IMG/VR virus record: IMGVR_UViG_3300025703_000004
Coordinates: 1 to 44,650 of that record
DNA: 44,650 bases
Strand: one strand, 5' to 3'
Source of the DNA: a virus
In this document: one piece after another, positions 1 through 44,273 of the stretch
Position numbering within the stretch: position 1 is the first letter of the stretch
Layout: the number at the start of each line of letters is the position of its first letter
Made by a program: the position numbers and the translations under genes
The notes under the pieces: model-generated
What the model was told of the DNA's origin: nothing
The model's database searches: none
Seen by the model: only the letters and a program-made list of their open reading frames with translations

Positions 1-99
1 AACACCGCGCTGGAGCCAACGGCGGCTGCTCCTTGCATTGAGATTTCAGTGATATTCATAGGTTTTTGTTTTTCGCGCCGTGGCTCAGCTTTGGATCGT
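1..99. repeat. Terminal direct repeat (copy 1), circular overlap
   Basis: These 99 bases are identical to 44552-44650. The repeat begins and ends inside an attC-like site and inside coding sequence, and reading frames continue correctly across the join. It is therefore most simply an assembly overlap of a circular or circularly permuted genome of 44,551 bp. It also repeats the first codons of the gene whose full copy is at 44266-44610 (start codon here at 57-59). Confidence 0.93.
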
Positions 100-104
100 T
101 CGGC
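1..104 (+). repeat. attC-like site 9 (window-start copy)
   Basis: R'' AAC (cut by the window edge), arm GCTGGAGCCAACGG, loop, arm CCGTGGCTCAGC, R' GTTCGGC at 98-104. The 5' arm pairs with the 3' arm but has one extra G and one extra A, the extrahelical pattern of integron attC sites. The loop holds the start codon of the 44266-44610 gene and the stop of the 56-700 gene. Confidence 0.85.
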
Positions 105-700
105 GTCTTTGCGATGCCGCTCAGTAAATCGTATTCGACCTGGTTTCCGAACACCTCCCAGCCAGGTCGTTTCAGCCGAGAGAACATTTCGAGTTTTGGC
201 ACGTCTGGATACCACTCCGCGATTTTGTCGCGCACATAGTCCGGTTTCGAGCTATGGCTTCCACGCGGCGAGCGGATCACGCTTGAGATTCGCAGCGGTT
301 GCGGTGGCGGCGAGACGTTGCCGCGAGTTCCGACCATCAGGATTTCATGCTGGCCTCTGAACCAGTAGCCCATCCCGACTTTTACCTTGTCCCAGACGGC
401 TTGCGTTTTGTAGCGGAATCCCCACGCCTTCATCACTTCCAGCGCGACTTCCAGCCGTGGCGCACACGCCCACAGGTAGAGGATGCAGTCTTTTGCGGCT
501 GGCACTTGCAGGGCGCATATTTCCTCATCGCTCATTGTCGGGTAGTGGTTTTCGATCCGTCTGTTTGGCGTGGCGTTATCGTAGCGCCACGGCGGGTCGG
601 CGTAGATCACACCAAAAGACGCCGAACAAATCGCTGCACCCGCAATGACTACTGCGGCGGGCAGTTTGGCGGATTCGGGCATCGTAGGCGCAGTAGTCAT
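56..700 (-). CDS. MT-A70 family adenine methyltransferase (cassette 10)
   Basis: Predicted N6-adenine methyltransferase of the MT-A70/Ime4-like class, 214 aa. The catalytic DPPW motif lies at residues 35-38, preceded by the strand VIYA. The downstream pattern YLWACAPRLEVALEVMKAWG and the C-terminal ...PGWEVFGNQV match the usual order of the fold. It would modify adenines in phage DNA, probably protecting it from host restriction (inference). The first 34 residues are non-conserved and are encoded within attC 10. The C-terminal tail from PND onward is encoded within attC 9. Its stop overlaps the next start as ATGA. The target sequence cannot be read from the protein. Confidence 0.88.
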   Translation of the reverse strand: MTTAPTMPESAKLPAAVVIAGAAICSASFGVIYADPPWRYDNATPNRRIENHYPTMSDEEICALQVPAAKDCILYLWACAPRLEVALEVMKAWGFRYKTQAVWDKVKVGMGYWFRGQHEILMVGTRGNVSPPPQPLRISSVIRSPRGSHSSKPDYVRDKIAEWYPDVPKLEMFSRLKRPGWEVFGNQVEYDLLSGIAKTPNDPKLSHGAKNKNL

Positions 701-721
701 GGGGTGAGCTTGGCGTTGGGC
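621..721 (+). repeat. attC-like site 10
   Basis: R'' GCCGAAC, R' GTTGGGC. Arms GCTGCACCCGCAATGACT and AGTCATGGGGTGAGC pair, with an extra G after GCT and an extra A before TGACT in the 5' arm. The loop side holds the start of the 56-700 gene. Confidence 0.85.
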
Positions 722-861
722 AGCCGGAGTGCGCGCTGGGTTTTCGCACGGTTCTTTTGAGCCTTCCGAAGTCTCGCCGTGCGCTTGGCGATTTCGGCTG
801 GCGAGTATTTCTTTGGCACGCCAGCGGCCATCTTGCCGAGTTGTGAGGCGGGATTGCTCAT
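697..861 (-). CDS. Small basic protein, 54 aa (cassette 11)
   Basis: Starts MSNPASQLGKMAAGVPKK and is rich in Lys, Arg and Ala (…EIAKRTARLRKAQKNRAK…), suggesting a nucleic-acid-binding peptide; no family recognised. Its ATG overlaps the stop of the 858-1124 gene as ATGA and its own stop overlaps the start of the methyltransferase gene as ATGA, so the three are translationally coupled. The C-terminus LPNAKLTP is encoded by attC 10, in the same PN frame as the other cassette genes. Confidence 0.6.
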   Translation of the reverse strand: MSNPASQLGKMAAGVPKKYSPAEIAKRTARLRKAQKNRAKTQRALRLPNAKLTP

Positions 862-1124
862 TCGAGTTCTTGGTTGTGGCCGATATACATCGGGCTGGCC
901 TTGTGGAAGGCGTGAATCATTTGCTTGGCCTCATCCTTCGTTTGAGCCTTCCCGACCACGCGACCGGAGCAGGTTGTTACCACGATTCCATCCGGCCAGA
1001 CCGTCGCCGTCCAGCCGCGCTGCGCGGACTTCGGCGCATACGCCTTCATGTGGAATTGGTTCGATGCAGGCGTGCCAGCGAGACAGGTTGCCATCGTGTT
1101 TTGTTTGGTCAGTTTTATTTTCAT
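858..1124 (-). CDS. Hypothetical protein, 88 aa, own promoter (cassette 11)
   Basis: Not recognised. The start at 1124 (MKIKLTKQNTMATC) is preferred over an upstream ATG at 1163 because a good promoter (TTGACA, 17 bases, TATGCT) lies between them with the ATG six bases after the -10 box, so translation would be leaderless. The C-terminal half has a compact pattern (GWTATVWPDGIVVTTCSGR…KAQTKDEAKQMIHAFHK). It is the only cassette seen with its own strong promoter and with two full genes. Its C-terminus does not reach an attC site. Confidence 0.7.
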   Translation of the reverse strand: MKIKLTKQNTMATCLAGTPASNQFHMKAYAPKSAQRGWTATVWPDGIVVTTCSGRVVGKAQTKDEAKQMIHAFHKASPMYIGHNQELE

Positions 1125-1130
1125 GCCCAC

Positions 1131-1159
1131 AGCATATTCCACATAACCGCTTGTGTCAA
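1131..1159 (-). promoter_or_regulatory. Sigma70-type promoter inside cassette 11
   Basis: On the minus strand TTGACA (1159-1154), a 17-base spacer and TATGCT (1136-1131), preceded by an A/T-rich stretch (1160-1185). The ATG at 1124 is six bases after the -10 box, so the transcript should be leaderless. Confidence 0.75.
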
Positions 1160-1212
1160 ACATTTATTTGATTTATTTTCAGCCTCACAGAAGCCTTGGT
1201 TTTATTAGCGTT

Positions 1213-1266
1213 TCAGGCCGGCCTGCCCAACAAGCTGCTGGAGGCAACGGCGGTTGTGCGCGTCAT
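1213..1266 (-). pseudogene. 17-codon remnant or leader ORF in attC 11
   Basis: Reads MTRTTAVASSSLLGRPA then TGA. Its start overlaps the stop of the 1263-1517 gene as ATGA and lies in the attC loop like the true cassette genes, and AVASSSLLG matches the attC-encoded N-termini of other cassettes. No body follows. Either the cassette gene was lost and replaced by the promoter-driven gene at 858-1124, or this is a short leader peptide. Confidence 0.45.
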
Positions 1267-1314
1267 TTGCAATCCACGCCCCCAGTCCGCCGCGCCTCAG
1301 CAGCGGCGTTAGGA
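1225..1314 (+). repeat. attC-like site 11
   Basis: R'' GCCCAAC, R' GTTAGGA. Arms GCTGGAGGCAACGG and CCGCGCCTCAGC pair with one mismatch; extra G and A in the 5' arm. Shortest site of the main array, about 90 bases. Confidence 0.8.
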
Positions 1315-1517
1315 TGCCCAGCCACCATTATGTTCCAAATTGATTTACATTTTTCTGGGGTTTCTCCAAAGGCAGATTCAAGGCCACACTTTGGGCAGTA
1401 TGTGTGCCACTGCCGAGTCTCAGGTTTTATGCCGCAGGTTGGGCATCCTAACAAATCGCTGGAACCAACGGCGGGAGTCCCTTGCGTTCGTTTGTCAGTT
1501 GAAAATAGGTCAGTCAT
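1263..1517 (-). CDS. Lar-like restriction-alleviation zinc protein (cassette 12)
   Basis: 84 aa. After an attC-encoded leader (…GTPAVGSSDLLG) comes a zinc ribbon with CPTCG and CPKCG about 14 residues apart, then a spacer and KSIWN. This order (CPxCG, CxxCG, then a helix ending in WN) is that of the Lar family, which in lambdoid prophages relieves host type I restriction. The start at 1517 is chosen because it places the ATG in the attC 12 loop; a longer frame reaches 1586. The C-terminus from HPN onward is encoded by attC 11. Function is by family resemblance; other small zinc ribbons look similar. Confidence 0.6.
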   Translation of the reverse strand: MTDLFSTDKRTQGTPAVGSSDLLGCPTCGIKPETRQWHTYCPKCGLESAFGETPEKCKSIWNIMVAGHPNAAAEARRTGGVDCK

Positions 1518-1553
1518 ATTTATTCGCCGCCGTGGTTCAGCTTTGGGTTGTGC
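1446..1553 (+). repeat. attC-like site 12
   Basis: R'' TCCTAAC, R' GTTGTGC. Arms GCTGGAACCAACGGCGG and CCGCCGTGGTTCAGC pair fully apart from the extra G and extra A. The AACC/GGTT step differs from the GAGCC/GGCTC of other sites in a compensated way. Confidence 0.87.
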
Positions 1554-2206
1554 CCGATTGAGCGTCTTGCGATTTGGAGCAGCCATTCAGCGAAAGCAAC
1601 GGGCGTGTGTTCTCGTTCTGATGTTGGCAGTCTTTTCTTGTGAGCATTTCGGCTCGTCGTTTTGTTGTGAGCTTTGATGCAGTGAGTTCTCGGATCGTAT
1701 CGCACCAGATGCGCCGGTATTTCTTCTTGCGGCGTGCCGACGATGTAGAGCCATGTCATTTTGTTTGCACGATGCCCCCACCATCTTTGATCCACGGCGA
1801 TTGTATATCCGCCCCACTTGTCGGGACGTGCGCCGGGTTTCGGAAGCGGTATCGCTTTCCAGAGTCGGCTCATTTCTGGATGTTCTAGCACGCCGCCATT
1901 TGCCCTGACTTTTTCGACAGCCCACAGAGCCAGTTCTTTTTCTCCGGGTTCTGGGTTTGCGAAGTGAGCGAGTTTTGCCCATGCGCGGCACGGCGGGTGC
2001 GCGATTACCGGAGTTCCAGCCACGAATGTTTTTGCATCGCGTGTTTTGTCATACACGTCGCAGGCTGGCAGAGATTTGTAGATGGAGTCTTGTCTGGCGA
2101 ATAGCACAGAGACGGGCACAACAAATCGCTGGACACGAATGGCTAGTGTCCCGGCAGTTTGGTCGCTGGTCTTGCGCTCCATCGTTGTTGGTTGTTCAGA
2201 GTTCAT
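1520..2206 (-). CDS. DNA cytosine-methyltransferase-like protein (cassette 13)
   Basis: 228 aa. After an attC-encoded N-terminus (about 33 residues) it has a strand followed by HPPC (70-73) with RAW just after, resembling the PC motif IV of C5 cytosine methyltransferases, and GGVLEHP (about 104-110), resembling the ENP motif. Further on come WWGHRANKMTW and a strand. No clear SAM-binding FxGxG motif is visible near the N-terminus, so it may be a divergent or non-methylating relative. The start at 2206 lies in the attC 13 loop. The C-terminus (GHNPKLNHGGE) is encoded by attC 12 in the common frame. Confidence 0.55.
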   Translation of the reverse strand: MNSEQPTTMERKTSDQTAGTLAIRVQRFVVPVSVLFARQDSIYKSLPACDVYDKTRDAKTFVAGTPVIAHPPCRAWAKLAHFANPEPGEKELALWAVEKVRANGGVLEHPEMSRLWKAIPLPKPGARPDKWGGYTIAVDQRWWGHRANKMTWLYIVGTPQEEIPAHLVRYDPRTHCIKAHNKTTSRNAHKKRLPTSEREHTPVAFAEWLLQIARRSIGHNPKLNHGGE

Positions 2207-2242
2207 TTTACGCACCCGCCATCGGTCAGCTTTGCGTTCGCT
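2116..2242 (+). repeat. attC-like site 13 (terminase end of the array)
   Basis: R'' GCACAAC, R' GTTCGCT. Arms GCTGGACACGAATGGC and GCCATCGGTCAGC pair with an extra G and A and one further unpaired stretch. It is the most diverged site and ends 10 bases from the terminase stop, so it marks the outer end of the array. Confidence 0.72.
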
Positions 2243-2252
2243 GGCTTCCACG

Positions 2253-4364
2253 TTAAAATCCTTTTCCAGGCCGTCCGCGGTGGCCAACCGTTTCTAAATG
2301 CTCCAGTTCCGCCAGCGCCGAGTATTTCACCAGGTCAATAAAATCCTTGCTCGCGCCCGTGCCGCCGCTGCGCCCCGTGTAATTCTCCAGGCACCAGATC
2401 ACCTGCCGGCATTCCTCGCTCACGAACAATCGCGGCTGGTTCACCCCCGGCATCTGGTCTTCCCCCGCGCCCACCGCACCCAGCCCATCACCACCCAATA
2501 GCCCGTTCAGCAGCGTGATCCCCTCGTCCGCCTCCTCCGCGTTGGAGCGTCTGGACGTCGGCGCATCGTTCAGCTCCATCGCCGGCGCGATGCGCTCGCC
2601 CGTCTTCGCGTCCAGTTGTTCCGCCTCAAACAGATCATAAAGCGTCACCCCGCCGCCCGTGCTCACATGCTCATTGTGGATCCCGCGTGGATCGCCATAC
2701 CGCGCCGCAATCTCCTCGCGCAACTCCAAAAGATTCTCCCCGCCCCGCATCGCCTGCCGTATCCGCTTCTGCCAATACAAATCCGGCACGTCTCTTGTCA
2801 GCACGGTTTCCAATGTGGTTTCATTCCAGGGCACGGCACGGTTCCCCAGCAGCATCGCTGGCACGGCGATCAACTCCTGCCGCAAAATTTCATTCTTATA
2901 CCGCTCCACGCCCCAGCCCAGCCCCGTCTGCGCCGGCCCCGCATCGCCGTCCCAGCCCTTGCGGTTCTGATCGTTCACTTCCCGCTCCGTCGTCACCGCC
3001 CATTCGCCGTAGGTCGGCATGTCCGGCCATTCCCGGTAGAGATACCAGCTCACCGGCCGCGTCGGCACCGCCCGGATCCAGATCATCGGGAAATTCCGCG
3101 TCCCGTGCGGGTCAAAGAAAAAGTAATTCGTCCCCGTCGCCGGGATTTGCGACCGCTTCACGATGTTCAACGGCCCGAAGTTCGGGAACGCCCGCGCGAT
3201 GCTGTCCCGCGCATAACCGTAGGCCACCCGCTCGATATACTCCGTCGTCTTCCCCGCGCACAGCGCCGCGATCTCGTCGTAATACGTCCGCCCCGCGCCC
3301 GGGCCGAACCGGTTGAAGATCGTGTGGAAATAGATCGCCTTCGCCCCCGGCATCACGCACTGGCGGATGTAGGGCATGTGGCCCTTGGCGATGTCTGGAA
3401 AATTCTGGCCCGGCAGCAGCTCGCTCGGCCGGCTTTGCAGCGTGCGTGCCGCCTTGCCCACCATCTCCTTGATCGCCGGCGTGATGCCCTTCACCGGTGT
3501 GAACGGCCACAGCAGTTTCGCCTGGCGGAACTTCACGCGACGCGCGAACATCTTCAGCCATGCCAGCGGCATGGATTCATCCGGCACCGCCCCGATGTTC
3601 GGACACGCCGTCCGTCCCTGCGCCCGCCACGCGGAGAGGTCAACCGGCTCAAATTCCTTGTCCAGCGCGCCGGTGGCATCTTTTAACGCCTCCGTCAATC
3701 GTTGGCTCACCGCGTGATACACGTCCATTGGAGCGCCCCATTCCCATCCTTCAAAATCCGTCGTCTCCTGGTTGTAGGTCAGGAAATAAATCTGGCTGCC
3801 GTTCGGGAAAATCACCTTGCCGTCCGCAAACCCGTTCTTCTGCGTGTGGTTGATGTTTGTGATCGCGCTGCCCCGCTTCCCGTTCAGATGTTCGAAATGG
3901 CGGCGGATGTAATACCACCCCAGCTCCTGCACCGTCGCGATGCTCGACTCCAGCGATTCTGAACAGATCGCCACGCGCGAATTCGGGAACAACAGCGCGC
4001 TTTCCACCGCCCGCTTCACCGCATACCACGTCTTCTGCGCCCGGTTCCCGCCAAAGATTCCCAGCAGGTAGCAACCCTCCGCTTCTATCAACAGCTTGTC
4101 CGCGTCCGACCACGTCTCCGCCTCAAACGTCCAGTTCAACGGATCCATTTTCTCAAACGCAATCCTTTCCTGTCTCCGTTGCAGTTGTGTGATGAATCGT
4201 TCCTGACCGTCTGGCGTCGCCATCAACGCCTGCACCTGCGCCAATGTCGGCAGCTTCAAAATCGGATGCGCCGACACCTCCAGCTTCTCATACAACGCCT
4301 TCAGCTCCGCCTCACCAAATCTCGGCGCAGCGGCTGGCGTTCTGGATGTCTGGACGGTTTCCAT
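2253..4364 (-). CDS. terL: Terminase large subunit
   Basis: ATPase and nuclease of the DNA-packaging motor, 703 aa. The P-loop region reads FGGNRAQKTWYA (about 104-115); the usual FGGNRxGKT pattern is altered to AQK, an unusual Walker A. A nuclease-like segment FFDPHG (about 420) and a C-terminal DLVKYSALAE follow. It starts by overlapping the stop of the upstream gene (TAATG). Downstream, where the portal would be expected, lies the cassette array, so terminase and portal are about 7.8 kb apart on the circle. Confidence 0.88.
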   Translation of the reverse strand: METVQTSRTPAAAPRFGEAELKALYEKLEVSAHPILKLPTLAQVQALMATPDGQERFITQLQRRQERIAFEKMDPLNWTFEAETWSDADKLLIEAEGCYLLGIFGGNRAQKTWYAVKRAVESALLFPNSRVAICSESLESSIATVQELGWYYIRRHFEHLNGKRGSAITNINHTQKNGFADGKVIFPNGSQIYFLTYNQETTDFEGWEWGAPMDVYHAVSQRLTEALKDATGALDKEFEPVDLSAWRAQGRTACPNIGAVPDESMPLAWLKMFARRVKFRQAKLLWPFTPVKGITPAIKEMVGKAARTLQSRPSELLPGQNFPDIAKGHMPYIRQCVMPGAKAIYFHTIFNRFGPGAGRTYYDEIAALCAGKTTEYIERVAYGYARDSIARAFPNFGPLNIVKRSQIPATGTNYFFFDPHGTRNFPMIWIRAVPTRPVSWYLYREWPDMPTYGEWAVTTEREVNDQNRKGWDGDAGPAQTGLGWGVERYKNEILRQELIAVPAMLLGNRAVPWNETTLETVLTRDVPDLYWQKRIRQAMRGGENLLELREEIAARYGDPRGIHNEHVSTGGGVTLYDLFEAEQLDAKTGERIAPAMELNDAPTSRRSNAEEADEGITLLNGLLGGDGLGAVGAGEDQMPGVNQPRLFVSEECRQVIWCLENYTGRSGGTGASKDFIDLVKYSALAELEHLETVGHRGRPGKGF

Positions 4365-4899: not shown

Positions 4900-5280
4900 T
4901 TAGCGGATATACTCCGCGATTTCTTCTCCCTCTCCGCTCTGGGGAGAGGTCCGGGGTGAGGTGTCCCCGCCGTTCACTGCATCCCGCATCTGCTGAAACA
5001 AACCCTTCGCCATCTCCATCGTCGGCCTCACCCGCACCGGCCGTTCCCCGCTCGCCACTCGCCACTCATCACTCGTCACTGCCCTTTGCGGCACCCACAC
5101 CACCGTCCACTTATGGCAACGCGGACACTTCGCCGGCGTCCCCGCCTCCTCGGGGATGTTCTCCGCCGGCTTCTCGCACCGCTCGCACCAAAACCCGCTG
5201 AACCCCAACGGCACAATCACCCGCGCACTCGCATGGTGGATGTTTTTCAATTTTTCTTTTTGGTTTTGGTTGATCGTCAA
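4900..5280 (-). CDS. Zinc-ribbon protein
   Basis: About 126 aa if started at a TTG (5280) just after the upstream stop; the frame is open to an ATG at 5316 and further, so the start is uncertain. CERC and CPRC spaced by about 20 residues form a probable zinc ribbon (FWCERCEKP…AKCPRCHKW). The middle encodes TSDEWRVASGERP, which comes from an inserted heptanucleotide repeat (5050-5083), and the C-terminus overlaps a CTCTCC/GGAGAGG intergenic-type repeat (about 4926-4965). Such inserts within a coding region suggest tolerated repeat invasion. Confidence 0.6.
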   Translation of the reverse strand: MTINQNQKEKLKNIHHASARVIVPLGFSGFWCERCEKPAENIPEEAGTPAKCPRCHKWTVVWVPQRAVTSDEWRVASGERPVRVRPTMEMAKGLFQQMRDAVNGGDTSPRTSPQSGEGEEIAEYIR

Positions 5281-7393: not shown

Positions 7394-8179
7394 TCATTTC
7401 TCATCCTCCACCACCGGCGTGAAATCCCCGCGCCGCTGTTTTTTTTGAATTTTTTGGACCAGCGCCGCCATTTTTTTTAGCTCTTCCTCCTGCTCCTCCG
7501 TCCGGTCCTCTTCCAAAATCGCTTCTAGCTCCCGCTTCCGGGTGGAAACAGCCGCAAATTGGTTCGTCAACGCCTTGCGGGCCTCTTCCTTCGAGGCGAA
7601 GCCACCATTCTTCTCTATCTTCTTCCCCTTGTCTGTCTGTTTACTGTCTGTCTGTCTGTCTGTAGCAGAATTTTTCCCAGACGGTTCCTGATGGGCGGGA
7701 ACATGGCGGGAATTTTTCCCAGACGGTTCCTGATGGGCGGGAACATGGCGGGAATTTTTCCCAGACGGTTCCTGATGGGCGGGAATTAATGCCGGTTGCG
7801 TCCCGTTCAGATGCGGACATTCAATGTGTTCCACCCAGTTGATTTTGGGCTGTGCAAACCACAGTAACGCCTCCTCAAAGGCCGCGGCGGGTATCGTCGG
7901 CAGCAGTGATGACATGTCTTCATAGTCCATCGCCGCACCGCCACGGATCAACCATCCCCGCTCGTTCATCGCGCTCTGGCTCGCCAGCGTCTCGAGCAGC
8001 GTCCACATGCCCAGCAGGGCCGCGTTGCGCGGGTGCGGCTCGCGCAGCGTCTTGCCGATGCCAAAGCCTATCAGCTTCGTCTGCTTCGCATACCAGCCCA
8101 TGAAATCCGTCTTGCGCGTGTCCGCGCGCTCGTATTTCAGATGCCACTGCGTGATGTGCCAGGCCTTAGTCATAATCAT
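7394..8179 (-). CDS. Phage replication protein with internal 14-residue repeats
   Basis: 261 aa from 8179, where ATG overlaps the previous stop as ATGA. The N-terminal half (…KQTKLIGFG…LLGMWTLLETLASQ…GWLIRGG) resembles phage replisome-organiser or DnaD-like initiators by general pattern only. Then come nearly three copies of PAHQEPSGKNSRHV from a 42-bp tandem DNA repeat, a Thr/Asp/Gln stretch from a GTCT repeat, and a charged coiled-coil C-terminus (KRELEAILEEDRTEEQEEELKK). It lies just before the helicase, fitting an initiator or loader. The DNA repeats inside the gene could be origin iterons. Confidence 0.7.
   Translation of the reverse strand: MIMTKAWHITQWHLKYERADTRKTDFMGWYAKQTKLIGFGIGKTLREPHPRNAALLGMWTLLETLASQSAMNERGWLIRGGAAMDYEDMSSLLPTIPAAAFEEALLWFAQPKINWVEHIECPHLNGTQPALIPAHQEPSGKNSRHVPAHQEPSGKNSRHVPAHQEPSGKNSATDRQTDSKQTDKGKKIEKNGGFASKEEARKALTNQFAAVSTRKRELEAILEEDRTEEQEEELKKMAALVQKIQKKQRRGDFTPVVEDEK
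7630..7663. repeat. GTCT microsatellite
   Basis: Short run of the tetranucleotide GTCT, interrupted once, inside the replication gene and coding for a TDRQTDSKQTD segment. A tetranucleotide repeat in a coding region can shift frame by slippage. Confidence 0.8.
7671..7785. repeat. 42-bp tandem direct repeats in the replication gene
   Basis: Units start at 7671, 7713 and 7755 (the third partial), identical over the shared length. Each encodes 14 residues (PAHQEPSGKNSRHV). Repeats of this kind inside an initiator gene are where lambda-type phages keep origin iterons, so this is an origin candidate. Confidence 0.85.
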
Positions 8180-10420: not shown

Positions 10421-10545
10421 AAACCTTCACCCCAAAAACAAAATCCATCACCATGAAAACCATGACTCGTAAAACCCAAACCGCCAACTTCATCGGCATC
10501 ATTCACAAGCTGTGCACCATCGCCGAACGCAGAGTTGACGCATGA
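10417..10545 (+). CDS. Very small basic protein, 42 aa
   Basis: MKTFTPKTKSITMKTMTRKT followed by QTANFIGIIHKLCTIAERRVDA. Starts on ATGA overlap and stops on an ATGA overlap with the next small ORF, inside attC-like site p1. Its opening MKTFTP is like that of the integrase (MKTFTL). Coupling supports a real gene; no function seen. Confidence 0.5.
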   Translation: MKTFTPKTKSITMKTMTRKTQTANFIGIIHKLCTIAERRVDA

Positions 10546-10625
10546 ATGATACGCCGCCCACGATGCCCGATTTGCAAGCCGACGTGACCGGCGTATCAGT
10601 CATTGCGTCCAACGATTTGTTAGCC
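10522..10625 (-). repeat. attC-like site p1 (recombinase locus)
   Basis: Read on the minus strand: R'' GGCTAAC, arm TTGGACGCAATGACTGAT, loop, arm ATCATTCATGCGTCAA, R' GTTCGGC. The arms pair with one mismatch, an extra G and an extra A in the 5' arm. Polarity is opposite to the main array and points away from the recombinase gene. It overlaps the stop of 10417-10545 and the start of 10542-10646. Confidence 0.82.
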
Positions 10626-10646
10626 GTCACGGTCGAAAAACACTGA
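10542..10646 (+). CDS. attC-overlapping leader peptide, 34 aa
   Basis: MNDTPPTMPDLQADVTGVSV followed by IASNDLLAVTVEKH. It starts in the attC p1 loop and ends at the first bases of the promoter repeat. The end (NDLLAVxVEKH) recurs in the 20-aa ORF at 11660-11722, so both are probably products of the same attC-plus-repeat junction. Whether the peptide matters or only its translation does is unknown. Confidence 0.4.
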   Translation: MNDTPPTMPDLQADVTGVSVIASNDLLAVTVEKH

Positions 10647-10800
10647 AATCGTCAATGTTTTCAAGGGTAAAATAAATCGCATAAATCTGATAATAATGTA
10701 TTGACAAAACACGGCAATATGCGAAACTATGGGTGTCAGATGAATCTGACAATCGCCCCGGCGAAACCGGGAAGTGAACAAACAACAAAACAAAAATATG
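10634..10800 (+). promoter_or_regulatory. Promoter/structured-leader repeat, copy 1
   Basis: About 165 bases, repeated at 11077-11220 and 11711-11873. A/T-rich upstream part, TTGACA (10701-10706), AACTAT (10725-10730, spacer 18), then a leader with two hairpins: TGTCAGA-TGAA-TCTGACA (10734-10751) and CCCGG-CGAAA-CCGGG (10757-10771), followed by an A/C-rich unstructured stretch to the ATG at 10798. No Shine-Dalgarno sequence. Confidence 0.8.
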
Positions 10801-11022
10801 ACGACTCAAAAAAATCCTTGGACTGGTGGACTGTTCGGAAACACTGAAGCCGCGCAAAAAGCGTTTGGAAACCAAACCTTTTCTGACGAGCAAGTGGAAT
10901 GGTCTGAGGAATATCACCACAACATCGCGACCGCTGCTGACCGCGCTCGCGTTGAATCCCTGGAAGGTGACGAGGGACAAATCATCGCGTGGTATTGGAA
11001 CGACTCTTTTCGCGCTCAATGA
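10798..11022 (+). CDS. Hypothetical protein, 74 aa
   Basis: MTTQKNPWTGGLFGNTEAAQ, then KAFGNQTFSDEQVEWSEEYH, ending IIAWYWNDSFRAQ. Acidic, with several Trp; not recognised. Start at 10798 chosen right after the A/C-rich leader; a GTG at 10774 is in frame and lies in the leader. Acidic small early proteins are often inhibitors of host enzymes, but nothing specific shows here. Its stop overlaps the next start (ATGA). Confidence 0.68.
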   Translation: MTTQKNPWTGGLFGNTEAAQKAFGNQTFSDEQVEWSEEYHHNIATAADRARVESLEGDEGQIIAWYWNDSFRAQ

Positions 11023-11147
11023 AAACCACATGCCCGCATTGCGGTGGGGTGATAAACCCCGCCGCGCTTCTCGGAGCGAAAAACACTGAAATCGTCAATG
11101 TTTTCAAGGGTAAAATAAATCGTAAAAATCTGATAATAATGTGTTGA
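11019..11147 (+). CDS. Small zinc-knuckle protein, 42 aa
   Basis: MKTTCPHCGGVINPAALLGA, then a tail KNTEIVNVFKGKINRK encoded by the start of promoter repeat copy 2. The single CPHCGG knuckle resembles the start of a zinc ribbon, and the later part looks replaced by repeat sequence, so this may be a truncated gene. The stop codon overlaps the -35 box (TTGACA) of the following promoter. A 9-bp hairpin (about 11041-11065) lies within it. Confidence 0.45.
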   Translation: MKTTCPHCGGVINPAALLGAKNTEIVNVFKGKINRKNLIIMC

Positions 11148-11220
11148 CAAAACGAAGATGAAATGCGAAACTATCTGTGTTGGAAGAAACCAACAAATCG
11201 CCCCGGCGAATCCGGGAACA
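11077..11220 (+). promoter_or_regulatory. Promoter/structured-leader repeat, copy 2
   Basis: Same architecture as copy 1: TTGACA (11144-11149) and AAACTAT (11168-11174). The first leader hairpin has a different sequence, TGTTGG-AAGAAA-CCAACA (11178-11195), still perfectly paired, while the second (11202-11216) is conserved. This points to selection on RNA structure. Confidence 0.78.
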
Positions 11221-11238
11221 GAAAAACACTGAAACAAA

Positions 11239-11442
11239 ATGAAAACTGAAATCACCCTCGAAATGCTGACCAAAGCGGTCGGTTCCAAACAAGCCAACGA
11301 ACTCAACGCCTCATTCCCGGTTGGCGATCCCATCCGACAGATAATTTTCGGCGCGTGGTATGCGCCGTCGAACTATTCGCATGAAGGTGCAATCCAAGCC
11401 GCGCTCGGTGGCTGCCATGAAGACTTCGCCGATGCACTCTGA
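11239..11442 (+). CDS. Hypothetical protein, 67 aa
   Basis: MKTEITLEMLTKAVGSKQAN, then ELNASFPVGDPIRQIIFGAW, ending EDFADAL. Not recognised; helical with a GDPIRQIIFGAWYAP core. Driven by promoter repeat copy 2; preceded by ACACTGAAACAAA without a Shine-Dalgarno sequence. Its 3' end overlaps the next gene in another frame. Confidence 0.65.
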   Translation: MKTEITLEMLTKAVGSKQANELNASFPVGDPIRQIIFGAWYAPSNYSHEGAIQAALGGCHEDFADAL

Positions 11443-11617
11443 AACCAAATCAGTCGGAAGGCCGCTCGCGGACGAAACCGCCGCCAGCGGCCACATCCAT
11501 CTTCGCGTGACGATGGAGCGCAAAAACAAATACGTCCGCGCCGCCCGCCGCCGCAAAATGAAGCTCTCGGAATGGATGCTGGCGACGTGCGACCAGGGCG
11601 AGGCTAGTGACGGCTAA
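11417..11617 (+). CDS. Small basic protein with GRPL-RKN domain, 66 aa
   Basis: Start at 11417 or at an ATG 15 bases later; the longer frame from 11360 overlaps the previous gene more deeply. The segment from SVGRPLADETAASGHIHLRV through MERKNKYVRAARRRK to LSEWMLATCD is clearly homologous to the C-terminal third of the 12098-12544 protein. The basic helix and the small size suggest a DNA-binding repressor-like module (inference). The stop codon (TAA) lies in the R' box of attC p2. Confidence 0.65.
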   Translation: MKTSPMHSETKSVGRPLADETAASGHIHLRVTMERKNKYVRAARRRKMKLSEWMLATCDQGEASDG

Positions 11618-11701
11618 CGCTGACATCAGGCACGCCGGGCCGGGGCGTGCGGATTGAAAATGAGGCGTCCAGCCGGCGTTGCCTGCAACGATTTGTTAGC
11701 C
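11612..11701 (-). repeat. attC-like site p2 (recombinase locus)
   Basis: Minus strand: R'' GGCTAAC, spacer with AAATCGTTG, arm CAGGCAACGCCGG, loop, arm CCGGCGTGCCTG, R' GTTAGCC. The arms pair fully with one extra A in the 5' arm; the outer part of the stem is poorly paired. Same polarity as p1. Confidence 0.78.
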
Positions 11702-12566: not shown

Positions 12567-13802
12567 ATGAAAACCTTCACCCTCTTCAAGCGGTCCGACC
12601 AACGCGACGCACCCTACTATTTCAAATTCACCTTTCGCGGCAAAACCTGGCTGCGCTGCCTCCAGACCAACGACGCCGCCATCGCCCAGCAACGCGCCCG
12701 CGCCCTGCACAAAGAGATCACCGAGTCCATCATCACCGGCCAGTTTGAACGTCTGGACGCCACTAAAACCCGCCACACCGTCCACGCCACCCTCGCCGAA
12801 CTGATCGCCGCCTACCGTCAATCTCCCGTGGACGCCGCGCAAAAAACGCGCGAGTCGAACATCAACGCCCTTTACAACGTCCTCCGTCGTGCCAACGTAG
12901 CAGCCGATGTAAATCGGCTCAATTCAACCCCTTACCCGCAACTGCTCACGGCCGTCACCGCCGCCAAATTCTTCGCCCAGGCCTGTTTTGAAACCCGCGC
13001 CGACGACCAGACCGAAAACGTCCGTAAAAAACGCACCGCAAATTCGTTGTGGCTCCAGGCCGCCAGCATCTGCGCCCCGCGCGCCATCGCGTATTACAAA
13101 ACCCTCGGCATCTACCATGATTGCCTCGATGCGTTTTCAAACGCCGGCATCCTGCACCGCTTCACCCGGCTCCCGCGCATCGAATACAATCCGCCCGCGG
13201 ACGACATGATCCAAAAAACCCTCGCCGCGTGGGAAGCATTTGAAGACAGAAATGTCTTCCTCGCCATCGGCCAGATCCTAGCCTTCGGCCTGCGCGCCGA
13301 TGAAGTCGCCCAGTCCCGCACAAGCTGGTGGACCACGCGCCACGGCTACCCCGTCCTTGATGGCGAAGCCCGTGTGAAGAACAAAACCGGCATCGTCCAG
13401 GTGCGCGCACTGGATCCGTTCTACACAACGATGCGCGTCAAAGCCATCAGCCGCGGCTGGCTCACATTGGGCACCGGCGACTCGCCGGTCATCACCGGCT
13501 CCGACAGCTACCGCGACGACGGCTTTGAGCGCGAAGTCTCCGCCTTCCTGCGGTCGCACGGTTGGGAAACCCAAAAAACGAACCACGCGCTCCGGGCCTA
13601 CGCCGGCAGCCAGGTCGCCATGAAATACGGCATCTACGAGGCACAGACCTGGCTGCGGCACAGCAGCGTCAAAGTAACAGAGTCGGCCTACAGCCATTTC
13701 ATCCGCAAATTCAAGCCCCAGAACCTCGACGACATCCCCGCGCGCTGGGCCGTCCTCGATCAAGCCCCCATCCTCTCCATCGTCCAAGCTGCCGAACAAT
13801 GA
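12567..13802 (+). CDS. int: Tyrosine recombinase (phage integrase type)
   Basis: Site-specific recombinase of 411 aa. The N-terminal about 60 residues (FKRSDQRDAPYYFKFTFRGK…) look like an arm-type or variant SAM-like binding domain. Catalytic residues visible: R243 (FGLRADEV), a Lys near 271, H340 and R343 (NHALRAYAG), H365 (WLRHSS) and nucleophile Y375 (SAYSHF). It lacks the HTLRHSFATHLL-type core and the extra helix of integron integrases, so it is not IntI in the strict sense. Its gene sits 28 bases from the attI-like box and points away from the attC sites, the place an integron integrase would hold. It could serve lysogenic integration, cassette movement or both. Confidence 0.85.
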   Translation: MKTFTLFKRSDQRDAPYYFKFTFRGKTWLRCLQTNDAAIAQQRARALHKEITESIITGQFERLDATKTRHTVHATLAELIAAYRQSPVDAAQKTRESNINALYNVLRRANVAADVNRLNSTPYPQLLTAVTAAKFFAQACFETRADDQTENVRKKRTANSLWLQAASICAPRAIAYYKTLGIYHDCLDAFSNAGILHRFTRLPRIEYNPPADDMIQKTLAAWEAFEDRNVFLAIGQILAFGLRADEVAQSRTSWWTTRHGYPVLDGEARVKNKTGIVQVRALDPFYTTMRVKAISRGWLTLGTGDSPVITGSDSYRDDGFEREVSAFLRSHGWETQKTNHALRAYAGSQVAMKYGIYEAQTWLRHSSVKVTESAYSHFIRKFKPQNLDDIPARWAVLDQAPILSIVQAAEQ

Positions 13803-40533: not shown

Positions 40534-40914
40534 TTAAAGTCCGATCCACTCCCCGATCTCTTCCTTCCGGAATTTCCGTTCACCGATCCCGCCCGGCTGC
40601 ACCGCCGTCAAACCCTTCGCCCGCACGATGTCGCTGATCGTCCCGTTCGCGTAACCCGTCCACTGCGTCACCGCCCCCAGCCCCAGCAACGGCTTCTCCC
40701 GCCACCACGCCTCATAGTTCAGCGTGTCAATCCATCCCAGCAGCCCGGCAAGCTGCCGTTTCTGATACCGCCGCTGCGTGCAACCCTTCGGCAGCACCGC
40801 GTGCAGGATGCCGTGCTCCGCGTATTTGCCGATCGTCGCCGGCGCATACCCGCACGCCACCACCTGCCCCTGCGTCAGCAGATACGGCAACTTCTGGAAT
40901 TCCTCGCGTGTCAT
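40534..40914 (-). CDS. Protein with two helix-turn-helix motifs
   Basis: 126 aa. The N-terminal LTQGQVVACGYAPATIGKYA and the C-terminal LGAVTQWTGYANGTISDIVR both look like MerR/excisionase-type helix-turn-helix units followed by RRYQKRQL and ERKFRKEEI wings. Just upstream of the portal gene, it might be the small terminase subunit or an operon regulator. Start at 40914 overlaps the previous stop (ATGA). Confidence 0.65.
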   Translation of the reverse strand: MTREEFQKLPYLLTQGQVVACGYAPATIGKYAEHGILHAVLPKGCTQRRYQKRQLAGLLGWIDTLNYEAWWREKPLLGLGAVTQWTGYANGTISDIVRAKGLTAVQPGGIGERKFRKEEIGEWIGL

Positions 40915-41195
40915 AAAAATTTCAAAATCAAACCCAATGCCTTTGCCGCATGACGCACCGATTTCAAGTCCACAAAATGTGACTCGCCCGTTGTCTTGTT
41001 TCTCACGCCAAACTCAAATCGGTGCCAGCGTTCCAGTTTCGGTTCACGCTCCAAAAGGCCGGCGTCAATTAAAGCCTGACGTTTGCGGGCCTTGGCTTCT
41101 CGCCAGCGTGCCATCTTAGCGCAAATTCGTTTGTGCCTTTCCTCTCGCAACTTGCGTGAGCGTAAGAAACATGAATTCTGTTGGCACTGCGTCAT
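40911..41195 (-). CDS. Basic protein at the array boundary, 94 aa
   Basis: Very basic N-terminal half (FLRSRKLREERHKRICAKMA, RWREAKARKRQALIDAGLLE), then a strand-rich segment and a helix ending KALGLILKFL. Not recognised; the basic coiled part suggests nucleic-acid binding. Its ATG overlaps the stop of the first cassette gene, and the attI-like box is nine bases upstream, so cassette insertion takes place right at its translation start. Confidence 0.65.
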   Translation of the reverse strand: MTQCQQNSCFLRSRKLREERHKRICAKMARWREAKARKRQALIDAGLLEREPKLERWHRFEFGVRNKTTGESHFVDLKSVRHAAKALGLILKFL

Positions 41196-41578
41196 ATTCT
41201 ATTGTTAGGTGACGGAGCGTTAGCCTTGAATTGCTCCATCAGTTCTTTGGTTTTGAAGCCGAACCATGTTCGACCGTGCATCGTTACATTCCCGCGCCGC
41301 CAGATGCCTTCATGCCCGTGCATCGGCGATGATTGGCGACCGAGCGAGCGGTAGCACCAATCGCGGATTTCGCCATCGAGATCGCCCGTGAACACATCGA
41401 GCATCCAAGGGGTTGGCGACCATTCGCTTTTCATCAGCGCCTTTTGTTCGGCGTCACCGTAGTCTTCAGCCATTGTTTTACGATAGAGTTCAGTTCCGTC
41501 GCCTAACAAGGGCGCTGGAGACAACCCCGATTGTGCATCGCAGTTGTCCGCTTCGGATTTTAGGATTTCGGGCGTCAT
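41192..41578 (-). CDS. Hypothetical protein, 128 aa (cassette 1)
   Basis: The first about 27 residues (…PAPLLGDGTEL) are encoded by attC 1. The body has EWSPTPWMLDVFTGDLDGEI, a WCYRSLG segment and WRRGNVTMHGRTWFGFKTKE, with many Trp and a strand-like end. Not recognised. It ends SPNNRI, read through the attI-like box in the common frame, and its stop overlaps the start of the backbone gene. Confidence 0.7.
   Translation of the reverse strand: MTPEILKSEADNCDAQSGLSPAPLLGDGTELYRKTMAEDYGDAEQKALMKSEWSPTPWMLDVFTGDLDGEIRDWCYRSLGRQSSPMHGHEGIWRRGNVTMHGRTWFGFKTKELMEQFKANAPSPNNRI
41204..41210 (+). other. attI-like R box at the portal end of the array
   Basis: GTTAGGT with no full attC to its left; only a weak partial complementarity (GCCAGCGTGCCA near 41102 with GGCACTGC near 41183) is seen. 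It defines the left border of cassette 1. On the minus strand it reads CCT-AAC in frame with the first cassette gene. Confidence 0.6.
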
Positions 41579-41611
41579 AGGTTCGGGGTGTCTCAGCTTC
41601 GTATGTTAGGC
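41501..41611 (+). repeat. attC-like site 1
   Basis: R'' GCCTAAC, R' GTTAGGC. Arms GCTGGAGACAACCCCG and CGGGGTGTCTCAGC pair fully, with one extra G and one extra A in the 5' arm. Arm sequence differs from other sites with compensating changes. Confidence 0.9.
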
Positions 41612-41895
41612 GACTTGAGCCATGCGACGATTTCACTCGGCAGCAGCATCCCATCAGATGTTTTTTTCCATTGGCCGCGTCCGAATAGATTCGGGTCGCT
41701 TTGACCTTTTATTCTCCAAGCCTGTTCGCAGCGGCGTTGACCGTCATCCGAATAAGCGACGACACTTTCACGACCCATGACGTATTTCCATTTCACGCCG
41801 TTGACATTGAGATTTCTACCAGGTCGCCTAACAAAGCGCCGGAGCCAACCGTGGTTGGACGTTTCATTTACGTTCGCAGGAGTTTTTGGTTTCAT
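41593..41895 (-). CDS. Hypothetical protein, 100 aa (cassette 2)
   Basis: MKPKTPANVNETSNHGWLRR is the attC-encoded N-terminus; the body is VKWKYVMGRESVVAYSDDGQ, RRCEQAWRIKGQSDPNLFGR and a helix LPSEIVAWLK. Not recognised. The end SPNIRS is encoded by attC 1, identical to the last five residues of the cassette 7 protein, which shows how attC supplies the C-terminus. Stop codon inside the L' arm. Confidence 0.7.
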   Translation of the reverse strand: MKPKTPANVNETSNHGWLRRFVRRPGRNLNVNGVKWKYVMGRESVVAYSDDGQRRCEQAWRIKGQSDPNLFGRGQWKKTSDGMLLPSEIVAWLKSPNIRS

Positions 41896-41936
41896 AAAGT
41901 TTTCAGTTCCACGGTGGCTCAGCTTTTTCGTTAGGG
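41826..41936 (+). repeat. attC-like site 2
   Basis: R'' GCCTAAC, R' GTTAGGG. Arms GCCGGAGCCAACCGTGG and CCACGGTGGCTCAGC pair with an extra G and A and one mismatch. Confidence 0.88.
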
Positions 41937-41937
41937 G

Positions 41938-42663
41938 TCATAGCAACGCGCCTTGGTTACATTCACGTTCAAGACGGGCGCACGCAGTCTTGAAGTGTTC
42001 CGGGTCTTTCTCGATACCCACGAAATTCATGCCGAGCCGGAGAGCCGCGATTCCGGTCGTGCCGCTGCCCATGTATGGATCGAGCACAGTGCCGCCTTCG
42101 GGCGTCTTGGCCTGCTCGATACACCATGCCATGAGGTATGCCGGTTTCTGTGTCGGATGCAGCCGGCCTTCACTCGACCAACGTGCTACGCCGTGCCACA
42201 TCTTCGAGCACATCCGCACGGCCTGCCCGACGTTGCACCATGCAAGCTCACAGTCACCGAAGCAGATTTCAGACGGCTTGCCGTCGCCGCGTTTATTGAA
42301 CACCAGCCAGCCACCTTTCTGCGGCAGCGAGTGGCAGAAGTATTGAGCACCCCACAGCACTTGAGTCTTGCCAACTGCAAGCCACGGTGTCGGGTCGAAC
42401 GGTTGGTCATCACCCATTACCCGCTTATCCCACACCTTCGCCATTTTCGCTCCACCCCATGCTGACATCCCGCTCCAATCGGTGTTCAGATTCATTCCAT
42501 ACGGCGGGTCGGTGATTACCGAGTCCACAGTCGGCAGAGTGGGTAGCACGTCCAGACAGTCAGCGTTGTAGAGAGTCACATGGTTGTGACCCCTAACAAA
42601 GCGCCGGAGCGAATGAGCGCCGCGTGCGTCATTTGCAGTGGGTATGGTTTCAGTGGCGCTCAT
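41938..42663 (-). CDS. DNA methyltransferase, beta class (cassette 3)
   Basis: 241 aa. Motif IV DPPY at 52-55 comes before the SAM motif DPYMGSGTTG (about 195), the order of beta-class amino-methyltransferases (N6-adenine or N4-cytosine). Also seen are HPTQKP just before the SAM motif and FVGIEKDPE after it. An intact, apparently active enzyme that would protect phage DNA against restriction (inference). The attC-encoded N-terminus includes SLRRFVRG. The stop lies two bases short of the attC 2 R' box, so it alone of the cassette genes keeps its own C-terminus. Confidence 0.9.
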   Translation of the reverse strand: MSATETIPTANDARGAHSLRRFVRGHNHVTLYNADCLDVLPTLPTVDSVITDPPYGMNLNTDWSGMSAWGGAKMAKVWDKRVMGDDQPFDPTPWLAVGKTQVLWGAQYFCHSLPQKGGWLVFNKRGDGKPSEICFGDCELAWCNVGQAVRMCSKMWHGVARWSSEGRLHPTQKPAYLMAWCIEQAKTPEGGTVLDPYMGSGTTGIAALRLGMNFVGIEKDPEHFKTACARLERECNQGALL

Positions 42664-42685
42664 CGCTCAGCTTTTTTCGTTCTGC
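42591..42685 (+). repeat. attC-like site 3
   Basis: R'' CCCTAAC, R' GTTCTGC (one deviating base). Arms GCCGGAGCGAATGAGCGCC and GGCGCTCATCGCTCAGC pair with extra G and A. Confidence 0.84.
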
Positions 42686-43173
42686 CAAATGACCACGCAC
42701 ATCGGCATCCACAGCCCGCGCTCGAATCCTTTGAAGGCGACTTCGCCACGGATGAAGCGGACGGTTGCGATGTCTTGCACGCACTCATGCCACCAGCCGG
42801 TGTTTGTTCGGGCAGGGATTAGCGCGACCACCGTGCAGCCGCGTTGCCATTCTTTGTGAGCCTTACGCACCCATTTTTGCATCGGGCGTCCATACGGCGG
42901 ATTCATCCAGCACACACCCGACCACGTTTGCTCCAGCCCATCTTCGGCGGCGGTGTAGTGGTTCGCGCAGAGTGCGTTCTTGTGAGTGCTTGCCACGTCG
43001 AGCGTGAAGCCGAACTCTTTGTCGAGAGGTTTCCAGATGCTATCGGGCGTCCCGTATTCTACCGATTTTGCATTGAACCATGATTGATCTACACGACGTT
43101 TGGCAGAACCAAGCGGCGCAGCCAACGGCGGGATCGCTGGTGGTTCAAGAGTCGTTGTGTTTTCGGGAGTCAT
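42667..43173 (-). CDS. dam: Phage-type DNA N6-adenine methyltransferase (cassette 4)
   Basis: 168 aa. DSIWKPLDKEFGFTLDVAST near the start and CWMNPPYGRPMQKWVRKAHK with NPPY (91-94), then ALIPARTNTGWWHE and a final strand CVVIWQNE, is the pattern of the phage DNA N-6-adenine-methyltransferase family (PF05869). Intact by length. N-terminus encoded in attC 4 (about 29 residues). The end WQNEKS reads the attC 3 R' box in the common frame and stops in L'. Confidence 0.9.
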   Translation of the reverse strand: MTPENTTTLEPPAIPPLAAPLGSAKRRVDQSWFNAKSVEYGTPDSIWKPLDKEFGFTLDVASTHKNALCANHYTAAEDGLEQTWSGVCWMNPPYGRPMQKWVRKAHKEWQRGCTVVALIPARTNTGWWHECVQDIATVRFIRGEVAFKGFERGLWMPMCVVIWQNEKS

Positions 43174-43210
43174 TTTTTATTCGCCGCCGTTGCTGGCCTT
43201 TGCGTTCGGC
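43103..43210 (+). repeat. attC-like site 4
   Basis: R'' GCAGAAC, R' GTTCGGC. Arms GGCGCAGCCAACGGCGG and CCGCCGTTGCTGGCC pair with an extra G and a second extra base (C) near the usual A. Confidence 0.78.
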
Positions 43211-43425
43211 GGCGTTAGCGGGTGGCGTTTCCATTTCAGCCAACAGTCATCGCCCAGCATGACGCCGCTTGGCCTCATTGGTATTTGCACGGTAATGGTT
43301 AGTTCGTCTGCGTCACACCCCACCACCACCCCGTAAATTTCGATTATGGACGCGCTCGCCGCCGAACAAGTCATTGGAGCGCAATCGGCAGTGGCCTTGG
43401 CATTTTGGTCGTTGTTTTCAGTCAT
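43177..43425 (-). CDS. Hypothetical protein, 82 aa (cassette 5)
   Basis: An attC-encoded leader (MTENNDQNAKATADCAPMTC), then a beta-rich core IIEIYGVVVGCDADELTITV and VMLGDDCWLKWKR, and a tail PPNAKASNGGE encoded by attC 4. A small beta-barrel is likely; not recognised. Confidence 0.65.
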   Translation of the reverse strand: MTENNDQNAKATADCAPMTCSAASASIIEIYGVVVGCDADELTITVQIPMRPSGVMLGDDCWLKWKRHPLTPPNAKASNGGE

Positions 43426-43486
43426 AAAGTTTCAAGGTTTAGAGTGAGCCTTCGCACCTGCCGATGGCTCAATTCCATCGTTCGGC
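43361..43486 (+). repeat. attC-like site 5
   Basis: R'' GCCGAAC, R' GTTCGGC. Arms ATTGGAGCGCAATCGGCAG and CTGCCGATGGCTCAAT pair with the extra G and A and one further base. Confidence 0.8.
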
Positions 43487-43710
43487 GTAACCATTCTCTG
43501 CCGCAGGCCGGCGAGTGCATGAGCCAGTTTCACCGTTTGGGCTTTCGATGACGGCGAGAGTTCTTCGTAGCAGCCAGCTATCGCCGCCGCAGCAGCGTCT
43601 ATTTCAGCCACCATGATTTCACGATCCGAGGACGCCGAACCAGTCGCCGGAGCCAATGACGGTTGGCCGTCGCAGTTCCGCTTCGCGGTTGTGAGATTTA
43701 GTTCCGTCAT
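43432..43710 (-). CDS. Hypothetical helical protein, 92 aa (cassette 6)
   Basis: Leader MTELNLTTAKRNCDGQPSLA from attC 6, then two helices (EIMVAEIDAAAAAIAGCYEE, SSKAQTVKLAHALAGLRQRM) and a tail TPNDGIEPSAGAKAH encoded by attC 5. Helical hairpin; not recognised. The start codon follows the upstream stop by three bases inside the attC. Confidence 0.65.
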   Translation of the reverse strand: MTELNLTTAKRNCDGQPSLAPATGSASSDREIMVAEIDAAAAAIAGCYEELSPSSKAQTVKLAHALAGLRQRMVTPNDGIEPSAGAKAHSKP

Positions 43711-43732
43711 GGCTCAGCTCCGAATGTTAGGG
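43634..43732 (+). repeat. attC-like site 6
   Basis: R'' GCCGAAC, R' GTTAGGG. Arms GCCGGAGCCAATGACGG and CCGTCATGGCTCAGC pair with extra G and A. The L' arm carries the stop codon of cassette 7 and the start codon of cassette 6. Confidence 0.87.
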
Positions 43733-44046
43733 GCTTTCGGCGCTTCGATGGTTTTGCAGCCAGTGGCAGTTTCGCATTCCTTTGTATTGCACCACCAGCT
43801 TCCGCCGTGTCCGCCACACTGGTAGCACGGTTTCATTTCGCCTGGGTGATACCACAGCGGGTCGTCCTCGTAGCCGTCGAAGTATCCATCTTCGCATCCA
43901 GCGCCACACTCCACCCATTCCATTTCGCCGTTACAAAGAGCGCAGATCATTGAGCCATCAGAGCCACGATACATCGCCCCTAACAAATCACTGGAAGCAA
44001 CGGCGGGTGTCCGTTGCTCTTGAGTTGTTGGCGATGCGGTAGTCAT
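43714..44046 (-). CDS. Cys-rich zinc protein, 110 aa (cassette 7)
   Basis: After the attC-encoded leader (…RTPAVASSDLLGAMYR) come CALC, CGAGC, CYQCGG and CNTKEC, four Cys pairs or triplets around DGYFDGYEDDPLWYHPGEMK. The CxxCxG-like parts resemble DnaJ-type zinc fingers, so metal binding is very probable; the target is unknown. The last residues PNIRS come from attC 6. The leader is nearly the same as that of the Lar-like protein of cassette 12. Confidence 0.7.
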   Translation of the reverse strand: MTTASPTTQEQRTPAVASSDLLGAMYRGSDGSMICALCNGEMEWVECGAGCEDGYFDGYEDDPLWYHPGEMKPCYQCGGHGGSWWCNTKECETATGCKTIEAPKAPNIRS

Positions 44047-44082
44047 TGGTTTTTCGCGCCGTGCTTCAGTTCGTCGTTAGGG
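43978..44082 (+). repeat. attC-like site 7
   Basis: R'' CCCTAAC, R' GTTAGGG. Arms ACTGGAAGCAACGGCG and CGCCGTGCTTCAGT pair fully, with the extra G and A. AAGC/GCTT is a compensated change. Confidence 0.9.
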
Positions 44083-44273
44083 ATAGTGGCGAGCGCGTGA
44101 TATACATGACAAGCAGGGCATGTGTGCTTGTCGTCCGGCCCACCGCCTCCGCAGGTGCAGCACTGCATTACCGCCATGCTGATTTCTCTGTGCGAGTATC
44201 GCGGGTCACTATCCCTAACAACGCGCTGCACCGCAACAGCCGGTGTCCCTTTCACGTTCAATGTCTTACTCAT
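44043..44273 (-). CDS. Small zinc-ribbon protein, 76 aa (cassette 8)
   Basis: Start at 44273 because AAGGA lies six bases upstream; another ATG at 44279 is too close to it. Body with MAVMQCCTCGGGGPDDKHTC and PACHVYHALATI, a CxxC…CxxC zinc ribbon with 10-11 residues between. The tail PNDELKHGAKNQ is attC 7-encoded. Stop overlaps the next start as ATGA. Confidence 0.7.
   Translation of the reverse strand: MSKTLNVKGTPAVAVQRVVRDSDPRYSHREISMAVMQCCTCGGGGPDDKHTCPACHVYHALATIPNDELKHGAKNQ

Follow-up and report, generated by a model that had tools for sequence, protein, structure and literature searches.

Reversed, phase-locked gene cassettes with start codons inside attC loops in a phage genome

Phages can carry clusters of attC sites lacking integron integrases (CALINs). 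Qi et al. (2023, PMC9892861) describe integrase-less attC arrays in which DNA methyltransferases are a frequent cargo. Of six phage attC sites that they tested, all from families other than the one treated here, five recombined with attI1 by IntI1, and the cassettes of TJE1 and PH101 are described with typical orientation. ORF-11 at attI1 is a known case of translational coupling of the first cassette (PMC8876359). An attC hairpin reportedly blocks ribosomes except where translation of an ORF extends into it, and distal cassettes are reported to be poorly translated (PMC8876359). The subject here is an attC array in the 44,650-nt window – the whole stretch of DNA that was analysed, IMG/VR virus record IMGVR_UViG_3300025703_000004. 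The cassette genes run against the polarity of their attC sites, start in the attC loops, and leave their cassettes in a standard reading phase. The best explanation, with a probability of ca. 0.78, is that these are phage integron cassettes in which the genes are reversed, phase-standardised and translationally coupled, and which a host or phage IntI moves.

The first and last 99 bases of the window are identical, and this end repeat is the attC of cassette 9. The window is therefore a circular or end-repeated phage genome, opened within the attC array. Read across the origin, there are 13 attC sites from 41505 to 2238, bounding 13 cassettes that extend from 41205 through the origin to 2236. 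Each cassette runs from one G^TT, beginning directly behind the G, to the next. With at least two attC sites and no integron integrase, the array is a CALIN by definition. A first-pass annotation of positions 1–2242 described real features, though it took in only four full cassettes and part of a fifth of the 13, because the record is cut inside the array. The cassettes (all plus strand) and their genes (all minus strand) are as follows:

Cassette 1: 41205–41605 (+); attC 41505–41607; gene 41192–41578 (−)
Cassette 2: 41606–41930 (+); attC 41830–41932; gene 41593–41895 (−)
Cassette 3: 41931–42679 (+); attC 42595–42681; N6/N4 DNA methyltransferase gene 41938–42663 (−), own stop within the cassette
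Cassette 4: 42680–43204 (+); attC 43107–43206; Dam methyltransferase gene 42667–43173 (−)
Cassette 5: 43205–43480 (+); attC 43365–43482; gene 43177–43425 (−)
Cassette 6: 43481–43726 (+); attC 43638–43728; gene 43432–43710 (−)
Cassette 7: 43727–44076 (+); attC 43982–44078; Cys-rich protein gene 43714–44046 (−)
Cassette 8: 44077–44332 (+); attC 44217–44334; gene 44043–44279 (−)
Cassette 9: 44333–44650 (+), ending at 98 past the origin; attC 44552–44650, which is the same as 1–100; gene 44266–44610 (−)
Cassette 10: 99–715 (+); attC 625–717; MT-A70 methyltransferase gene 56–700 (−), start overlapping the cassette 11 stop as ATGA
Cassette 11: 716–1308 (+); attC 1229–1310; 17-codon leader from the loop ATG; genes 858–1163 and 697–861 (−)
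Cassette 12: 1309–1547 (+); attC 1450–1549; zinc-ribbon (weakly Lar-like) gene 1263–1517 (−)
Cassette 13: 1548–2236 (+); attC 2120–2238; phrog_12600 gene 1520–2206 (−)

The cassette boundaries are genuine rather than chance hairpins. Each cassette opens with the reverse complement of the sequence before its own R'', with identical runs of 6–13 bases, and the summed identity over the 13 junctions was matched by none of 100,000 permutations of partners. Against the attC box definition (R'' RYYYAAC and R' GTTRRRY around a foldable stem), all 13 sites have AAC/GTT boxes and stems of 13–17 bp, though some R' boxes deviate from RRR, e.g. GTTCGGC.

The polarity of the attC sites is plus, on three lines of evidence: the L'' bulges, the array ends, and the position of intI in related phages. 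The L'' arm exceeds the L' arm in unpaired bases at all 13 sites of the window, and L''-arm unpaired bases are also found at 78 of 80 distinct related viral sites. The layout is the classical one of two bulges, GCTG-g-AGCCA-a-CGGCG against CGCCG-TGGCT-CAGC. At the right end of the array a complete attC adjoins a putative terminase gene; at the left end the interior of a cassette is fused to phage DNA, and no hairpin was seen there. Cassette genes usually run with their attC, which lies at the 3' end; here none does. The first-pass annotation had proposed plus polarity with minus-strand genes, and this is borne out by the bulges and by three cassette genes whose strand is fixed by Pfam matches (MT-A70, N6_N4_Mtase and Dam). 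It had also named structure prediction as a test that could overturn it. The minimum free energy (MFE) of top versus bottom strand did not decide the polarity, but bulge position did, and it favoured plus at every site.

If the polarity had nonetheless been misread, these would be ordinary cassettes, with an attC 3' of each minus-strand gene and a start codon supplied by the preceding site. Since the cassette ends form inverted repeats, the junction match reads alike in both directions and does not give polarity; the R boxes are near-palindromic as well. A misreading is nevertheless very improbable, given the L'' counts (13/13 and 78/80), the attC seen at the right array end and not at the left, the intI at the other end in relatives, the conserved reading phase on the R' rather than the R'' side, and homologs that retain the 5' leader and exchange the 3' tail.

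Most of the minus-strand genes begin within the attC sites. Of 117 sites in the viral loci and the window, 100 have the reverse ORF as the top-ranked one by a codon-usage score. An ATG lies within the loop of every attC in the window (13/13), and in 12 of the 13 cassettes it opens the cassette gene, so that 19–29 codons are encoded by the attC through L'' and R''. The loop ATG and the attC-encoded N-terminus had both been predicted; the prediction stands for the ATG at all 13 sites, and for the start and N-terminus of the gene at 12, failing for cassette 11. An in-frame start within the attC is present in 12 of 12 window genes and 53 of 59 viral genes, compared with 8 of 24 and 66 of 118 for the other frames. 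The best PHROG matches start at residue 25–36 (methyltransferases) or 31 (the phrog_12600 protein), close behind the attC-encoded part. The phase in which genes enter from the attC is evenly spread, 4:4:4 in the window and 14:20:25 in the viral set.

Starts downstream of R'' would have told against this arrangement. For cassette 4 such a start is excluded, because there is no in-frame start codon between R'' and the Dam domain; for cassette 12 it is unlikely. Cassettes 3, 7 and 10 have a GTG or ATG just past R'' that could be an older start. Together with family profiles that begin close behind the leader and homologs that keep the leader in frame, these results leave the loop starts in place. 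The first-pass annotation held that the mRNA could fold into the same hairpin with its start codon in the loop. The sense RNA can indeed form this hairpin, which resembles that of the bottom strand, with an MFE of −23 to −43 kcal/mol and a negative z-score at 12 of 13 sites.

The 3' ends of the genes follow a phase rule. In 12 of the 13 cassettes the last gene (697–861 for cassette 11) has no stop within its own cassette. These genes leave across R' with the AAC in frame (NNN-AAC, phase 0), mostly as Pro-Asn. Counted over phases 0, 1 and 2, exit is 11:0:1 in the window and 40:6:12 in deduplicated viral genes (p=4e-8; 19:3:5 when counted per contig); at bacterial sites of the same attC family it is 4:8:12, a preference that is not significant. 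Reading in this phase reaches a stop in the adjoining attC; at all 13 window sites its distance to the ATG of that attC is −17 to +5 nt, and stop and start often share an ATGA. The first-pass annotation placed the stop of the preceding gene commonly in L'; it is found there or in the loop, always in phase 0 and within these distances. Among 80 viral attC sites, the stop overlaps an ATG at 32 in phase 0 and at 8 and 10 in the remaining two; at 42 bacterial sites the numbers across phases are 4, 1 and 8. Overlapping or closely spaced stop and start codons, the arrangement that defines candidates for translational coupling, are thus present throughout. The phase is fixed at the side of exchange and free inside the cassette, which is the asymmetry that a modular model predicts. 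The phase-locked exit and the gene ends supplied by the neighbour's attC, both absent from the first annotation, turn what might be an oddity into a system.

The reversal could be real and the loop starts and ATGA overlaps still do no more than reflect the compactness of phage genomes, neither a phase rule nor coupling having been selected. ATGA overlaps are frequent among phage genes, and the loops are short and A/T-rich, so a stop near the ATG is not rare. This explanation is unlikely, since it does not account for an exit phase of 40:6:12 among unrelated upstream genes where entry is uniform and where host cassettes of the same attC family have no significant bias. Exit in phase 2 would end at a TAA in most R' boxes without any neighbour, yet it is not favoured.

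Cassette homologs show which end of the gene travels with the attC. Cassette 10 and its homolog in L203 (one of the related loci, designated by L numbers; 70% identity, attC at its 5' end) are alike as far as TPN/SPN and then read DPKLSHGAKNKNL and VAGQTRPAENSNL, respectively. Cassette 7 and its L029 homolog (62%) are alike to EAPKAPN, followed by IRS in one and VRMSEGADK in the other, and cassette 13 and its L005 homolog (54%, beside intI) are alike to GHN, followed by PKLNHGGE and by SD preceding intI. All three pairs diverge right after the boundary Asn; an example of a swapped tail is PNDPKLSHGAKNKNL. With a shared 5' leader and differing 3' tails, the attC travels with the 5' end of the gene. 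Conservation of the attC-encoded leader is mixed – the first 19 residues are identical between cassette 3 and its L006 homolog, while the leaders of the cassette 7/L029 and cassette 10/L203 pairs are loosely conserved but in frame – and so no claim is made of strong purifying selection on it.

These features suggest how the array might work. An integrase-less cassette array sits within a leftward-transcribed block of phage genes. The attC is at the plus-strand 3' end of the cassette, as usual, with the gene reversed; because of the reversal, it covers the 5' end of the gene and provides its start codon. Most genes, having no stop of their own, run through R' in the standard phase into the attC of whichever cassette is their neighbour. 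The L' arm and loop of that attC provide a brief C-terminal extension and a stop codon placed at the neighbour's ATG or overlapping it. The ribosome ending the upstream gene would open the L' arm of the hairpin and restart at the next ATG. Because of the standard exit phase and the stop-start coupling, any cassette could be inserted anywhere and translated without a promoter or ribosome site of its own. We infer that the genes are translationally coupled, co-transcribed with phage genes, and moved by a host or phage IntI. The whole is probably, with somewhat less assurance than for the cassettes themselves, a form of the integron distinct to phages: a shared reading-phase standard lets recombination swap tails and build one coupled operon, with an integrase that some phages carry themselves and others borrow from the host.

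Several observations weigh against this account. The loop ATG of cassette 11 leads into nothing longer than a 17-codon ORF; the main ORF of this cassette begins at least 66 nt past R''. Cassette 3 is the only one in the window in which the last gene stops inside its own bounds. Twelve viral genes exit in phase 2 (often with a TAA in R') and six in phase 1. TAA/TGA-rich loops favour chance adjacency of stop and start, though not a phase bias of the upstream gene. The window phage has neither an integron integrase nor a Phage_integrase match, and so lacks the intI and attI of a complete integron. The viral comparison sites, from ca. 30 contigs of which several are fragmentary, are not all independent of one another. 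Finally, the attC scanner (motif plus stem, ca. 0.001 false hits per kb per strand) was derived from the motif of the window and is biased to one attC family, so that attC of other types are represented by samples only (L005, L293).

Cassette 11 has two genes (858–1163 and 697–861) linked by an ATGA overlap in addition to its 17-codon attC-loop leader, and may be a fused cassette.

Other searches defined the sample. An exact 23-base attC query against IMG/VR gave zero matches, but a gapped pattern did retrieve sites, and an Rfam search gave no match. Motif-free hairpin scans, which find many false sites in GC-rich coding DNA, were applied only to L005, L293, TJE1, P12002L and MW202573; among the published phages, TJE1 yielded a single site, and P12002L and MW202573 yielded none that could be used, so that these two do not count as fair negatives.

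The lack of an integrase in the window phage would also fit a dead relic, in which attC-like hairpins from a host integron are immobile and retained only as gene leaders. This is distinctly improbable: R', R'' and the stems are intact at 13 of 13 sites, related phages have differing arrays at differing positions, intact intI genes are present in relatives, and an intI-bearing bacterial contig has a methyltransferase cassette of this attC family that is likewise reversed. L005, with a putative terminase 58% identical to that of the window, encodes an integron integrase of 331 aa (E=8.6e-109), and L293 one of ca. 315 aa that is 76% identical to it. In both, intI occupies the left-hand (attI) side of the array, placed relative to attC just as it is in host integrons. 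Movement of the window cassettes is thus suggested by their intact sites, by intI in relatives, and by the cassette on the bacterial contig, SXMN01000089.

At 3789–6665 in L005 and 4223–7010 in L293, the integrase gene lies directly downstream of reversed, ATGA/GTGA-coupled cassettes, and these loci are possibly phage-owned integrons. In the L037 record (L284, L296), fragments of an integron integrase, apparently left over from an intI, lie close to a long reversed array. SXMN01000089 (L052) is an intI-bearing Verrucomicrobiales contig with a reversed, phage-type methyltransferase cassette like cassette 3 (at 5138–5235), among neighbours of which some look classical. The contig may be binned phage or host DNA, and its cassette possibly points to exchange of cassettes between phage and host.

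The boundaries of the array in the window, with the genes on either side, are:

41196–41210 (−): acceptor (attI-like) boundary, sense CCTAACAATAGAATATGA; cassette 1 reads 'PNNRI*', with TGA overlapping the ATG of a 94-aa ORF
40911–41195 (−): 94-aa basic ORF, whose leader is the downstream array end; homologs of 47–55% identity in two other phages
2253–4364 (−): putative terminase large subunit, adjoining the array on its upstream side and co-directional with it; assigned from relatives, Terminase_6N matching only at E=0.12

The leader AACAAYAGAATATGA also precedes the homologs of the 94-aa ORF in L011 and L288. The left boundary CCTAACAAYAGAATATGA is the leader of the homolog in L011, and L288 shares AACAATAGAATATGA. 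This ORF is at the downstream array end in two phages and has the same leader in a third, and may mark the acceptor site. In L004, L005 and L006 the putative terminase gene is directly followed by a homolog of window ORF 40534–40914, without array or 94-aa ORF; in L005 and L006 there are instead cassettes upstream of the putative terminase gene.

Elsewhere in the window there is a second, small cluster (10526–11697 and 12537) of attC-like sites of minus polarity with plus-strand genes, again reversed. In place of loop starts it has promoter-like TTGACA and AAACTAT sequences in a repeated upstream block, and it adjoins a tyrosine-integrase-like gene (12567–13802; phrog_1, E=3e-7). A 42-bp repeat occurs three times in tandem within an ORF at 7668–7793 (SRPSGTVWEKFPPC / AHQEPSGKNSRHVP).

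If this account is correct, reversal with stop and start in the loop would solve the problem of cassette expression and make cassettes usable in the middle of an operon without a cassette promoter. The phase rule is analogous to exon phase, with a DNA recombination site of phages as the place where it is enforced. Among the cargo are a zinc ribbon, weakly Lar-like, and no fewer than three DNA methyltransferases, which suggests that phages and Verrucomicrobiota integrons have in common a swappable arsenal against restriction. Software that assumes co-direction of gene and attC would misread such arrays.

Two parts of this picture are already known: phage attC arrays with methyltransferases (PMC9892861), and coupling at attI1 by ORF-11 (PMC8876359). 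The phage CALINs of PMC9892861 resemble the window in having attC arrays without integrase and methyltransferase-rich cargo, while the single site detected in TJE1 differs in sharing the polarity of its gene. The accessible portion of that paper has no mention of reversed genes with attC-loop starts or of a phase rule, and the open-access literature searched holds no report of reversed cassettes as a rule, attC-loop starts or a standard exit phase. ORF-11 is one short leader peptide for the first cassette only, whereas in the window the arrangement recurs at every cassette junction, inside the attC. Treponema integrons (PMC3607928) resemble the relatives of the window phage in that intI and cassette genes are co-directional, but in Treponema it is intI that is flipped and reads toward attI, while in the relatives intI is canonical and the cassette genes are flipped. 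The chromosomal integrons of Verrucomicrobiota, where intI was found in all 10 genomes tested (7 above the cut-off), share the attC sequence family, R boxes and bulge layout of the window. Bacterial contigs of this attC family (mostly Verrucomicrobiota) differ from it in that many genes run with the attC, stopping 4–20 nt before R'', and no exit phase is significantly preferred. Co-direction of gene and attC being usual rather than obligatory, the reversed, phase-locked cassettes with starts in attC loops are a variant of integron cassettes.

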